Shown here: in pieces, positions 44,306 through 49,252 of the stretch
How the letters are laid out: each line of letters opens with the position of its first letter
Numbering within the stretch: position 1 is the first letter of the stretch
From: Gammaproteobacteria bacterium
GTDB lineage: Bacteria; Pseudomonadota; Gammaproteobacteria; Ga0077536
Assembly: GCA_021773835.1 (NCBI GenBank)
Contig: JAJFJQ010000027.1
Coordinates: 1 to 64,000 of the forward strand
Reading direction: 5' to 3'
Length of the DNA stretch: 64,000 nt
The notes under the pieces: generated by a model
Database searches by the model: none
Told to the model about the DNA's origin: nothing
The model's input: only the letters and a program-made list of their open reading frames with translations
Position numbers and translations under genes: made by a program

Positions 44306-45085
44306 TTAGGCGGCGTTACGTCGACGGCGCGTGCAGGCTAGAAACGCAAATGCCGGTAGCGCTAAGGCGAGACTTGGCGGCAGTGGGACGACGGCAGCCG
44401 CGGGCGGTGCAGTAAAATCAATGAATATCATCGGCCGGTCGGCGAAATCTGAATTCTCCGACGCGTCGAAGTCAACGCCATTGGTGCCGGTCGCGATAAA
44501 CGCCCAGCCAAAATTCTGTGCGCCAGCAGACCATGACGCGACGGTACTCGTGATATCAATGGTGACCTTGTTGCCGCCGCCGTTAATGATCGAAACAGGC
44601 GTCGCGCCAGCATTAACGCCAGCCGTCACCCCGCCACCAAATGAATCCCAGGTAACTGTGGATTCTAGACCGAAGTCGGCTGTGAGTTCATAAAGCTCCA
44701 AGTCGGCACCGACATTGTCGATGTCAATGAATAGCGTTGCAGAGTTGATAACCGATCCCAGGGCGACTTGGCCAGGACCGGAGCCGAAAATGTTGTCGAA
44801 GCGCATGACAACCTGCGCCTCGGCGCCGCCGTCGAGCAGGTCTACTGTGAATTCAGGATCCGACGATCCTGTGCCCAGATCGAAATTACTGGTAGCAGCA
44901 GACTCACGTAACTCTGCATCGTGGGTGCTGTTGTAGGTCAGCCCAATGCTGGTGCCGTCGACCGTGATGAGTTGCCCGTCACGAAAGTCGATCGTCGTCG
45001 CTAGCACGTTGTTGCAAACGAACGCCATCGTTGCGAGCAAAATTGGCGCCAAGTGGTTCAAAGTGATATTCGTTGTTCTGTTCAT
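44306..45085 (-). CDS. Exported protein with VPLP-type (PEP-CTERM-like) sorting signal
   Basis: 259 residues. A signal peptide ends near residue 29 (NNVLATT). The middle has repeated Ser/Thr/Asp-rich beta strands like DNRLRE-type stalk domains (LFIDIDNVGADLELYEL, VTWDSFGGG, VTIDITSTVASWSAG). The C-terminus is VVPLPPSLALALPAFAFL then CTRRRR: a VPLP motif, hydrophobic helix and Arg cluster, i.e. a PEP-CTERM-type tail processed by an exosortase. Function unknown; probably surface or exopolysaccharide-associated. No exosortase is in the window. Confidence 0.8.
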   Translation of the reverse strand: MNRTTNITLNHLAPILLATMAFVCNNVLATTIDFRDGQLITVDGTSIGLTYNSTHDAELRESAATSNFDLGTGSSDPEFTVDLLDGGAEAQVVMRFDNIFGSGPGQVALGSVINSATLFIDIDNVGADLELYELTADFGLESTVTWDSFGGGVTAGVNAGATPVSIINGGGNKVTIDITSTVASWSAGAQNFGWAFIATGTNGVDFDASENSDFADRPMIFIDFTAPPAAAVVPLPPSLALALPAFAFLACTRRRRNAA

Positions 45086-45288: not shown

Positions 45289-46377
45289 TCAGCCGAAAGT
45301 GTTCTGTGCAGAGCGAAATTTCATCAAGCCGAGGCGCTCGCGGAAATCTTCCGACGCCTTAATGAACATTGGATCCGATGGAATGCCAATACCATTGGCG
45401 ATGCGATCATTCTTTGTGAAGTTACCCGCAATGATTGAGGCCGCTGCGACGGCGGCCGGTCCAAGCTCCGCTGACAGTGCGGAGCGGGCGCGATTCAACT
45501 CTGCGACATCGGTCTCAAGTAAGGCTTCTGCAAAATCGAGTAAGACCCGCCCGCCATCAACTCCTATTTCTTGACTCGGCTTGACCAGTGCGTCGATATT
45601 GAATTCGCGATCTATCGTTCGGCCGCTCTCACGGAGCACCCAGGCATGCCCGGCAGTTCAGTAAAAGCAATCATTCAAAGCCGATACCCGGCCTGCGATC
45701 ACCTCGACCTGTGGTCGGGTAAGGCCCGCATGATGTTGGTAGTCGAACTCGGCAAATCGATGTAATGGTAAGTATTGTGCTTGTTCGAGTTCCACATGGT
45801 CATGCGTCTCTGTCGGCACTAAGCTCAGCGCACGGATAATAAACGGCATCATCGCGTCCCCATAAAGTGTCTTGGCGTCGGCACCTCCGGCGTCGCCCGC
45901 CGGTACGGTCGCGACCCATGCGCCTTCTTCAATTGCGGCGGCGGAGCGTTCACCGCTCGGCGGCCCATCAACTGTTGGCGGCAAGGGTCGGGTCGGGATA
46001 TCGACACCGCGAGCTACAATGTCGATATTCGTCAGGCGAGAAACCAGCCCAACCACTTCCACGTATTGCGCGTCAGTCAATCCTTTAGCCAACGCTTGCT
46101 CGCAATCCGCACGCTCCACCGATGCAGGATCGACCGCCAACTGCCGCGCAATATGCCGTGCCGCTTCCGGCAGGTTGCGCACCGGTTCGCCAGGGGCACT
46201 GTTGGCTGTCTCTTGGATCCCGGCCTCGACCCGGGCGTTGCGGACTTCGGCCGCGAGCGCCAGTCGGGCTGCGCCATCGAACGAACTACCGGGTGCACCA
46301 AATGCGGCCAGCTGCCGCTCATAGATAGCGGCTATCTCGTCGCTTATCGGAAATTCTGTGTTTGCGTAATGATTCAC
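45289..46377 (-). CDS. AhpD-like alkylhydroperoxidase family protein with in-frame TGA (candidate selenoprotein)
   Basis: Read straight through a single TGA (45658-45660), the frame 46377 to 45289 encodes 362 residues, the length of two-region AhpD-like peroxidases. GTG 46377 has GGAGGATCG at the right distance. The N-terminal half has ARLALAAEVRNA and GLTDAQYVEVVGLVSRL of the family; the second has the redox motif at residues 237-244: Cys-Phe-Tyr-[TGA]-Thr-Ala-Gly-His, where relatives have CxxCxxxH. The TGA therefore sits exactly at the second, reactive Cys. Both halves are otherwise intact and in one frame, and a SECIS-like hairpin follows. The alternative is a nonsense mutation or base error (TGC or TGT to TGA). 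Confidence 0.6.
45620..45642 (-). other. Candidate bacterial SECIS hairpin
   Basis: On the minus strand TGGGTGCTC (45642-45634), loop CGTGA (45633-45629), GAGCGGCCG (45628-45620): five pairs closing the loop (one a G-U), a single G-G mismatch, then three more pairs. The loop begins 24 bases after the TGA, and G is the second loop base; bacterial SECIS elements are known to have the loop roughly 16-37 bases downstream with G among its first two bases. Fold and fit were judged by eye. Confidence 0.4.
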
Positions 46378-46520
46378 AGGGCGATCCTCCTACGATAACG
46401 ACGTGCGAATAATGGGCTGTGCCTGTCACTAGCGCCCGATCATGGCTACACTCAATGTAACAAAATTGTCCCAAGCCCGAGCCGTGTATCCGAACCGGCA
46501 GAGAGAACAGGGGAAATATC

Positions 46521-47984
46521 ATGTCGACAGAATACGCACGTAGTCACTGGCTAGATGAAGCGCTGGCCAATGAGAGTGCTGAACCGTCCGCAGCACTTGA
46601 TACCAATACCCGGGCGGATGTGTGCATCGTTGGTGGTGGGTATACCGGTTTGTGGACGGCCATTCGGCTGAAAGAAGCCGAGCCTGCGATCGATGTGGTG
46701 TTGATCGAGAAAGACCTTTGTTCGTCTGGGGCGAGTGGGCGCAACGCCGGTTTCTTACTTTCGTTGTGGGCCAAATTTCTGTCTTTAGAAAAGATCTGTG
46801 GCACGAGTGAGGCGCTACGGCTGGCAAAGGCCTCGGACGGATCGGTCACCGACGTAATGGAGTTCTGCGCCGAAAATAGTATTGACGCCGATATTCGCAA
46901 AGACGGGTGGTTGTGGGTTGCAACGAGTGCCGCTCAACAAGGACTCTGGACCGAGACTATCGATGCCATCGGTCGACATGGCCTGACCCCGATTGTCGAA
47001 TACTCCGGCGACCAAACGGCGGCGCGCAGTGGTAGCCCGGTTCATATTGGCGGCGCGTTTGAGAGTCACGCCGCACGGGTGCAGCCGGCGCTATTGGGCC
47101 GGGGCCTGCGGCGCGTTGCAATCGAGCGGGGCGTGAAGATCTACGAGCACACCGCATTAGAATCTCTCACCCATGGCAATCCAGCCGTGATCAAAACTCC
47201 GAAAGGAAGAGTCACTGCCGATCGTGTAGTACTTGCGATGAACGCCTGGGCTATACGCTGGGCGGAGATCCGCAAGTCCATCGTGGTTGTCTCAGGCGAT
47301 ATGATCGTCACGCCGCCGATCCCCGAGCGACTTGGGAAGATGGGATGGACTGATGGATTGACCGCCTCGGACGGGCGTGCGCTGGTACAGTACTACCGCG
47401 CTACGCGAGACGGCCGCCTCGCCTTCGGCAAGGGTGGCATGTCGGGAACGTTTTCGTTTGGCAGCAAGGTCGGAGCCGAAGTCGAGGGCGCATCTCCTTC
47501 CTGCGATGTCTTGCTTGAGGCGATGCATAATACGTTTCCAGATCTGGCGGACGTGGGCATGGCCAAAAGTTGGCGCGGTCCGATCGATCGCTCGAAATTA
47601 GGTCTTCCATTATTTTCCAATCTAGGGTCCGCGGAAAATGTTTTTTACGCGGTTGGATTTTCCGGTAATGGCGTTGGCCCGTGTCAAATGGCCGGGCGCG
47701 TGTTGGCCTCACTCGCGCTCGAACGACAGGATGAATGGTCAGGCTGCGGCCTAGTCCGCCAAGCCACGCGAGACTTTCCACCAGAGCCGTTTCGACTGCT
47801 CGGCTCTAAGATGATCTGCCGCGCGCTGTCGGCCAAAGACCAAGCCGATGACGAAGGCCGTAAACCTTCATTAGCAGCACGCCTTGGTGCACGACTTGCG
47901 CCGGCCGGGGTTTCGCCGTTTAACGCGGAGGATAAGGAAGCGAATGATGCCACGGCAACGGCGACCGTGGTGACGGCGGATTGA
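46521..47984 (+). CDS. FAD-dependent oxidoreductase (DAO family, PuuB-like)
   Basis: 487 residues. The Rossmann motif VCIVGGGYTGLWTAIRL binds FAD; ASGRNAGFLL and a C-terminal FYAVGFSGNGVGPCQMAGRVLASLAL match the DAO family's FAD-binding end. The family oxidises amino groups (for example gamma-glutamylputrescine oxidase, DadA, glycine oxidase). SD-like GGGGAAA precedes ATG 46521. It is convergent with the Sel1 gene. A polyamine-type substrate is only suggested by family likeness. Confidence 0.87.
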   Translation: MSTEYARSHWLDEALANESAEPSAALDTNTRADVCIVGGGYTGLWTAIRLKEAEPAIDVVLIEKDLCSSGASGRNAGFLLSLWAKFLSLEKICGTSEALRLAKASDGSVTDVMEFCAENSIDADIRKDGWLWVATSAAQQGLWTETIDAIGRHGLTPIVEYSGDQTAARSGSPVHIGGAFESHAARVQPALLGRGLRRVAIERGVKIYEHTALESLTHGNPAVIKTPKGRVTADRVVLAMNAWAIRWAEIRKSIVVVSGDMIVTPPIPERLGKMGWTDGLTASDGRALVQYYRATRDGRLAFGKGGMSGTFSFGSKVGAEVEGASPSCDVLLEAMHNTFPDLADVGMAKSWRGPIDRSKLGLPLFSNLGSAENVFYAVGFSGNGVGPCQMAGRVLASLALERQDEWSGCGLVRQATRDFPPEPFRLLGSKMICRALSAKDQADDEGRKPSLAARLGARLAPAGVSPFNAEDKEANDATATATVVTAD

Positions 47985-48007: not shown

Positions 48008-49252
48008 TCAGCTAAGGCTTGAGTGCGCCCGCCCCTTAGCCAAACGCTGGCGTGCGCCGCGCAGCGTATCGGGGTCGATTTCATCTTCGAGAATATCTAG
48101 CCGATGCTGGGCTTTGGGTAGTCCACCCTCTGCGGCGAGACTCATCCAATAGTAGGCGCCGGCTGGATCTTTTTGCACCCCTTTCGCGCGCGCTAGGCAA
48201 ACGGCTAGCGCATATTGTGATCGCAGGTGGCCTTGCTGGGCGGCGGATTCATACCACTGCAAACCATCGTCGCAGGCGTACTTCGGATCGTCAAAGAGCA
48301 TACAACGTTGCGCTAAATCGTATTGTGCCTTGACGTAACCGGTATCAGCCGAGCGTCTAAGCCACGACATTGCCGCGTCTCGGTCGGCAGTGACTCCATC
48401 CCCAGATTCGAACGCCATGGCCAAGCGGTAGGTCGCTTGGGGATAGTCTTGCTCCGCAGCCTGGCGTAGCCATCTAAGTGATTCTCCGGGCGACGGCTCT
48501 GGAATCAGCTCGCGCGCATAAAGTCGGCTCAAGGCGTATTGGGCCGCAGCAAAACCGGATTGCGCAGCCTTTTCCATTAATTCTTTCGCACGATCCAGAT
48601 CGTTAAATCGCGGCGGTGCACTGACATAGATCTGGGCAAGATTGTATTGCGCTTCCGGATCGCCGCTTTTAGCCGCCTCGCTACACCAGTAAATACCTTG
48701 TTCGAAGTCCCGGTAGCCGGCGTCCCCATTGACGTAAACAAGCGCTAACCGTATTTGCGCGCGCACAAAGCCTTGCTCGGCCGCGTCCTCCCAGTGTTGT
48801 AATGCGACGTCGATATCCGCCACCACGCCGATACCGCGGGCGAAGATTTCGCCGAGGCTAAATTTCGCTAAGGCATTGCCGTTGGCCGCCGCCGCGTGAT
48901 ACCAGGTCAAGGCGCGATCGATATCGCGCTCGGCTCCGATTCCAGTCTGATAACACAAACCCAGCCGTGCCATCGATTCTGCGTGATTATGCTCTGCGGC
49001 TTCGCCATACCAGGTCACCGCAGCCTCTGGATCTGCCACTACACCCTTGCCCATCGCATAGCAGCGAGCCAATCGATATTGGGCCTCTGGGTGGCCCGCA
49101 TCTGCTGCCCGGCGATACCAGGTAAAGGCTTGTTGATCGTCGATATCGAGCGCCGCGCGTTTGCGAAAGCGCTCCGCGATAGCAAATTGCGCGTCAACAT
49201 CGCCGCCGTTGGCAGCGGCAAGCATCTGTTCCATGTTGAATTCGTCGAACAT
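48008..49252 (-). CDS. Sel1-like repeat (SLR) protein
   Basis: 414 residues made of about eleven 36-residue Sel1/TPR-like repeats, each with the pattern A-x-x-G-x-x-x-A-Q-x-x-L-A (for example AADAGHPEAQYRLARCY, AAEHNHAESMARLGLCY, AAAQGHLRSQYALAVC-like). No signal peptide, so it is probably a cytoplasmic scaffold. Such proteins bind partners in signalling or stress; no partner is evident. ATG 49252 or the internal ATG at 49234 may be used. Confidence 0.85.
   Translation of the reverse strand: MFDEFNMEQMLAAANGGDVDAQFAIAERFRKRAALDIDDQQAFTWYRRAADAGHPEAQYRLARCYAMGKGVVADPEAAVTWYGEAAEHNHAESMARLGLCYQTGIGAERDIDRALTWYHAAAANGNALAKFSLGEIFARGIGVVADIDVALQHWEDAAEQGFVRAQIRLALVYVNGDAGYRDFEQGIYWCSEAAKSGDPEAQYNLAQIYVSAPPRFNDLDRAKELMEKAAQSGFAAAQYALSRLYARELIPEPSPGESLRWLRQAAEQDYPQATYRLAMAFESGDGVTADRDAAMSWLRRSADTGYVKAQYDLAQRCMLFDDPKYACDDGLQWYESAAQQGHLRSQYALAVCLARAKGVQKDPAGAYYWMSLAAEGGLPKAQHRLDILEDEIDPDTLRGARQRLAKGRAHSSLS

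Follow-up and report, generated by a model that had tools for sequence, protein, structure and literature searches.

The window, a stretch of 64,000 nucleotides from a Gammaproteobacteria bacterium (contig JAJFJQ010000027.1), holds a reading frame for an AhpD-like protein that is interrupted by one TGA codon. The question raised by this locus is whether that TGA is decoded as selenocysteine (Sec) or marks a gene broken by mutation, sequencing error or decay.

A reading frame with a single internal TGA and its protein family

The frame (46377-45289) lies on the minus strand, for which the sequence-only reading had given no orientation, and comprises 363 codons from a GTG start to a terminal TGA, with the context LNDCFY-UGA-TAGHAWVL around its only internal TGA (Table 1). 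The coordinates, the length of 362 residues, the one internal TGA and the CFY-TGA-TAGH motif given by that reading were all exact on the window sequence. After the terminal TGA (45291-45289) the frame continues ATA CGT TAA, so that a backup TAA stands three codons on. In the window, 5 out of 52 frames of at least 200 codons run on for 122 codons or more beyond their stop, and the open frame by itself is therefore weak evidence here; homology, invariance of the TGA and the pattern of selection, taken together, raise readthrough of codon 240 above chance. Annotation pipelines that read UGA as a stop would cut the protein off at residue 239.

Table 1. Features of the selenoprotein gene in the window; positions are those of the whole stretch.
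Feature	Position	Strand	Basis
Selenoprotein gene	46377-45289	minus	GTG start to terminal TGA, 362 residues, Sec240
In-frame TGA, codon 240, read as selenocysteine	45660-45658	minus	TGA at the homologous codon in 19/19 family members
Ribosome-binding site AGGAGG	46386..46391	minus	Sequence; 8 bases 5' of GTG
N-terminal domain, residues 1-160, probably AhpD-like without CxxC	45898..46377	minus	Folded alone; PDB matches
C-terminal AhpD-like catalytic domain, residues 161-362	45292..45897	minus	Pfam CMD, PDB sequence matches, fold search
Glu225, proton relay, 12 before Cys237	45703..45705	minus	Invariant; spacing as PA0269 Glu36/Cys48, 2PRR Glu74/Cys86
Cys237, partner of Sec240 in CFYU	45667..45669	minus	Invariant in the family alignment
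His244, proton relay, 4 after Sec240	45646..45648	minus	Invariant; spacing as PA0269 Cys51/His55
SECIS-like hairpin, +21 to +39 from UGA	45622..45640 (core 45624-45638; loop CGUGA 45629-45633)	minus	Covariation, RNAalifold, synonymous constraint, geometry

When the TGA was read as Sec, the protein matched the NCBIfam model NF041238 (AhpD_rel_CFYUT, alkylhydroperoxidase-related (seleno)protein; curated cut-off 175 bits) with 329.3 bits over model positions 1-357 of 357, and the Pfam domain CMD with 27 bits (cut-off 23). PDB sequence matches of the C-terminal domain were 6k40, 3c1l, 2pfx and 2prr. Thus, the window gene clearly belongs to an already known selenoprotein family and represents no new kind of system. 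In the Sargasso Sea selenoproteome of 2005, hypothetical protein 1 comprised four sequences with a conserved CxxU, without functional evidence (PMC1088965), and a 2026 review lists NF041238, with CxxU, as "AhpD-related protein (hypothetical protein 1, Sargasso Sea metagenome)" (PMC13188914). The window gene shares with this family the whole-length match, the C-F-Y-[U/C]-T motif (here CFYUT), the CxxU and predicted Sec insertion via an in-frame UGA, and we found no difference in kind; family, chemistry and recoding are all known in kind, and what is added here are three paralogues in one genome, together with a two-domain AhpD architecture suggested by the predicted structure. The selenoproteins AhpD-like 1 (COG2128) and AhpD-like 2 (pfam02627) of the Sargasso Sea and GOS data also carry, as the window gene does, a CxxU within the AhpD/CMD superfamily, but the literature lists them apart from hypothetical protein 1. 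The earlier proposal of an AhpD-like selenoprotein is supported, with a refinement as to the family, which is the separate hypothetical protein 1/NF041238, and not the abundant Sargasso/GOS AhpD-like family.

We also recorded further AhpD-type candidates. Three AhpD/CMD-fold genes in the window's own genome carry a TGA in frame where the second redox residue would stand, in CRLU, CPFU and CFTU motifs (L067:2761-3249 (+), L068:2692-3231 (-) and L069:2684-3208 (-)); they weakly resemble the YciW-related (seleno)protein family NF053654, below its cut-off, and if they count, this genome has six AhpD-type selenoproteins. Another three AhpD-type genes of about 197 residues with an in-frame TGA (CHYU, CTYU and CSYU; L075:2472-3062 (-) in genome G023, L065:2747-3337 (+) and L076:1953-2543 (-)) are near TIGR01926, and the one in G023 is divergent from selA.

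Conservation of the TGA and of a downstream hairpin

Within the same taxonomic family we searched 36 genomes for NF041238 (a search at the level of the order covered the same 36) and found 19 members over the cut-off in 13 of them, each with a single in-frame TGA. The codon homologous to 240 was TGA in all 19 members, always within CFYUT and never Cys, TAA or TAG, at identities to the window protein down to 31%; the final stops of the relatives varied among TAA, TAG and TGA, while the internal TGA was constant. Three paralogues in the window's own genome (contigs 20, 68 and 71) fell on separate branches of the tree. The closest orthologue, in UBA11873 (same contig as C370 of G003), was 76% identical, and against it dN was 0.18 before the TGA and 0.14 after it, with dS of about 2 on both sides; the part downstream of the TGA is therefore translated and selected. 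At the position of the GTG start of the window gene this orthologue (L038:1483-2568 (-), also seen in L058 near 3975) has CTG, with no ATG, GTG or TTG near the expected start.

These data bear on whether the TGA is a recent nonsense mutation, a sequencing error or part of a decaying gene whose codon was formerly TGC or TGT. A TGA is one base away from either Cys codon and the genome is a draft of 74 contigs, but the same TGA recurs in 19/19 homologues, purifying selection is equal past it, and both the full length and a downstream hairpin (see below) are conserved. With 19 loci in 13 genomes carrying the TGA, a point mutation or read error is untenable; we rejected the pseudogene and sequencing-error readings, and their probability is practically nil. 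The sequence-only reading had held that frame, motifs and length were intact, unlike in a decaying gene, and had proposed a check of relatives for other stops, frameshifts or Cys codons. Full-length conservation and purifying selection after the TGA bore out the former, and the latter returned no other stop, no frameshift and no TGC or TGT at codon 240 across the 19 members in 13 genomes.

Beyond the taxonomic family, NF041238 was found only in the window's own genome in both a class sample (369 genomes) and a phylum sample (398 genomes), and these samples thus gave no Cys orthologue for comparison. A scan of genome contigs returned the UBA11873 orthologue only, and a tblastn search of plasmids gave no match. 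No relative was confirmed in a scan of viral contigs, for which the search pattern back-translated C as TGY and was blind to TGA forms. As no Cys form occurs among the 19 members, the enzyme seems to depend strictly on selenium in this lineage.

Downstream of the UGA, the first 15 codons are free of gaps in all 19 sequences and hold a stem that pairs +23 to +27 with +33 to +37, and that reaches +21/+39 in many members. Its loop, 5 nt long and in most members CGUGA or CGUGC, lies 24 nt from the UGA. Compensatory changes were present at pair 24-36 (GC or AU) and at pair 27-33 (CG or UA). The covariation score was 0.309, against 0.199 +/- 0.033 in shuffled alignments (0 out of 500 reached 0.309) and at most 0.120 in slid controls with pairing partners shifted by 1-3 columns. 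RNAalifold recovered the same 5-bp stem unprompted, and the hairpin codons for Leu, Arg and Ser ranked 1, 2 and 5 out of 259 codon columns in synonymous constraint (z of 9.3, 9.1 and 6.6, respectively). The slid controls and the synonymous constraint weigh more than the shuffles, since the latter leave relatedness in place.

The published bacterial SECIS model that we used has a loop of 3-9 nt with a G in its first two positions and a stem of 4-16 bp, 16-37 nt from the UGA, with a minimum free energy (MFE) of at most -7.5. The window hairpin has a 5-nt loop with G second and a stem of 5-7 bp, 24 nt from the UGA, and for positions +18 to +42 it is the locally optimal fold (-11.2 kcal/mol on the window sequence), although the global minimum of the window's own 60 nt after the UGA is another fold. 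In two relatives (G000_C68 and G003_C307) the named stem is weak, and in some the local MFE lies above -7.5. In its geometry, the conserved hairpin fits the bacterial SECIS model.

Selenocysteine machinery and gene neighbourhood

All four genes whose presence the sequence-only reading had asked about (selA, selB, selC and selD) are in the genome. In particular, selA (C47:431451-432824) and selB (C47:432851-434740) are followed directly by tRNA-Sec (anticodon TCA), and selD is on contig 55. A second candidate tRNA-Sec over the Rfam threshold (C26) was a tRNA-Ser according to ARAGORN and was rejected; on the window itself, Rfam and ARAGORN gave no match. All 13 genomes with a CFYUT gene have selA, but so do 18 of the 23 family genomes that lack the gene, and because of this we set the co-occurrence aside as too weak, not being significant alone. 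Location was another matter: in five relatives (G005, G013, G019, G027 and G030) the CFYUT gene immediately precedes selA and shares its strand, and in G019 (L073:2605-9317) one strand carries a crotonase, the CFYUT selenoprotein, selA, selB, an esterase and tRNA-Sec.

Reading of UGA240 by ordinary suppression, or as an amino acid other than Sec, was considered as well. The conserved TAC before the UGA and the AC after it could be a readthrough context, but adjacent genes, and this gene itself at its end, use TGA as an ordinary stop, the whole Sec machinery is in the genome, the TGA occupies the position of the second catalytic Cys of the wider superfamily, and a SECIS-like hairpin and the location beside selA in five relatives also speak against it. 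We therefore rejected non-Sec readthrough, which we hold to be very improbable. The Tyr codon before the UGA (45661-45663 (-)) was TAC in all 15 non-redundant members and was the third most constrained synonymously; this invariant TAC is perhaps an anti-termination context.

Around the window gene itself, an FAD-dependent oxidoreductase (46521-47984 (+)) is upstream and divergent, and a CBM96-like protein (44306-45085 (-)) and a DksA/TraR zinc finger lie downstream. Neighbours kept in UBA11873 were a cyclase, a sulfotransferase, TraR, GNAT, LLM and a hydantoinase-like gene. The oxidoreductase, a Sel1-repeat gene (48008-49252 (-)) and the CBM96-like gene found no match in the syntenic UBA11873 contig, and the flanks of the selenoprotein gene thus differ between species of the genus. 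From this arrangement, the window gene is probably a single-gene unit, without a conserved partner that would tell its function.

Active site and probable two-domain architecture

In the solved AhpD-like proteins the proton relay follows the pattern Glu-x11-Cys-x-(Tyr/His)-Cys-x3-His, as in PA0269 (Glu36, Cys48, Tyr50, Cys51 and His55; PMC3141380) and 2PRR (Glu74, Cys86, Tyr88, Cys89 and His93; PMC4674687). The window protein has E225, C237, Y239, U240 and H244 at identical distances, none of the five varying in the family alignment, with the TGA/Sec240 in place of the second catalytic Cys of the wider superfamily. It shares with the AhpD-like peroxidases of known structure (PA0269/2O4D, 2PRR, 3C1L and 6K40) the helix-turn-helix and the E-x11-C-x-Y-[C/U]-x3-H motif with matching spacing, and differs from them in that they lack Sec, have a CxxC and consist of one AhpD domain, about 145-197 residues long. 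According to the sequence-only reading the TGA replaced the second, peroxidatic Cys; the alignment upheld the second redox position, while the term peroxidatic would apply by analogy with studied AhpD proteins. Because the exact relay spacing is kept, the window protein is likely a selenylsulfide-forming peroxidase/reductase.

Taking the lines of evidence together, the gene almost certainly encodes a true NF041238 selenoprotein, in which UGA240 would be translated as Sec under the direction of the hairpin, within a C-terminal AhpD-like catalytic domain. We infer Sec insertion at codon 240, a catalytic cycle and a role of the N-terminal half as follows. SelB and tRNA-Sec would decode the UGA, guided by the hairpin that lies some 20 nt further on. 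Sec240 and Cys237 would form the redox pair of the C-terminal domain, with Glu225, Tyr239 and His244 as the proton relay. Sec240 would most likely be the attacking residue, with a hydroperoxide, or else an oxidised partner, as its target; the resulting selenenic acid would be resolved by Cys237 into a selenylsulfide, and a thiol reductant would regenerate Sec240. The N-terminal half would probably be a cysteine-free second AhpD-like domain, taking the place of a dimer partner within the same chain.

This last step draws on predicted structures. The AlphaFold2 model of the whole protein had a pLDDT of 92, and its fold matches in the PDB were AhpD-like proteins, among them the AhpD-fold debrominase Bmp8, with a weaker full-length match to Sestrin2 (TM 0.47, E 0.08). 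Folded alone, the N-terminal half had a pLDDT of 84, and its best 21 PDB matches were all AhpD-like, though weak (E 0.05 to 1.8, TM about 0.4-0.54). A profile comparison of the two halves gave no match, so internal duplication was not seen by sequence, and a viral fold search gave no match. Bacterial analogues of Sestrins are on record in which AhpD domains are fused into a pseudo-dimer and the N-terminal one has no cysteines, and in those of Corynebacterium ureicelerivorans and Comamonas aquatica the active site is also in the C-terminal domain (PMC11429811). Going by the models, the window protein, like Sestrins and these pseudo-dimers, probably consists of two AhpD-like domains, one of them catalytic, its N-terminal half lacking CxxC. 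In Sestrins the active Cys is in the N-terminal domain and the second Cys is lacking, whereas CFYU of the window protein (residues 237-240) is C-terminal and has both redox positions; on this ground we rejected Sestrin proper. No Sec is described in Sestrins or fused pseudo-dimers, whereas the window protein has a predicted Sec, and a Sec-bearing fused AhpD pseudo-dimer may be undescribed so far.

The job of the selenoprotein could also be something other than peroxide removal: it could sense peroxide or selenium status, act as a redox enzyme of another type (dehalogenase-like, for instance), or work as a thiol-disulfide reductase or adaptor; this lies within the selenoprotein reading and is not exclusive of it. 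In M. tuberculosis, AhpD serves AhpC as an adaptor, PA0269 has no more than weak peroxidase activity (PMC3141380), and the structural match to Bmp8, the location beside selA in one genus and the Sestrin-like architecture of the model would agree with such a role. On the other side, all five peroxidase-linked relay residues are kept, and no partner emerges from the genes next to it in the window's own genome, several of which change between two species of the genus. We consider a non-peroxidase role a serious possibility, though the less probable one. That the NF041238 family is a Sestrin-like Sec pseudo-dimer whose N-terminal domain has a non-catalytic binding or regulatory role, with the adjacency to selA reflecting a link to selenium or peroxide sensing, is a speculative and rather unlikely proposal.

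The complete genes, with three paralogues in one genome, provide comparative proof for a selenoprotein family whose name goes back to four environmental fragments, and in one genus the CFYUT gene is placed with the Sec machinery. Finally, the CFYUT family is reasonably suited to a study of the advantage that Sec may offer over Cys at the active site of AhpD-type proteins.
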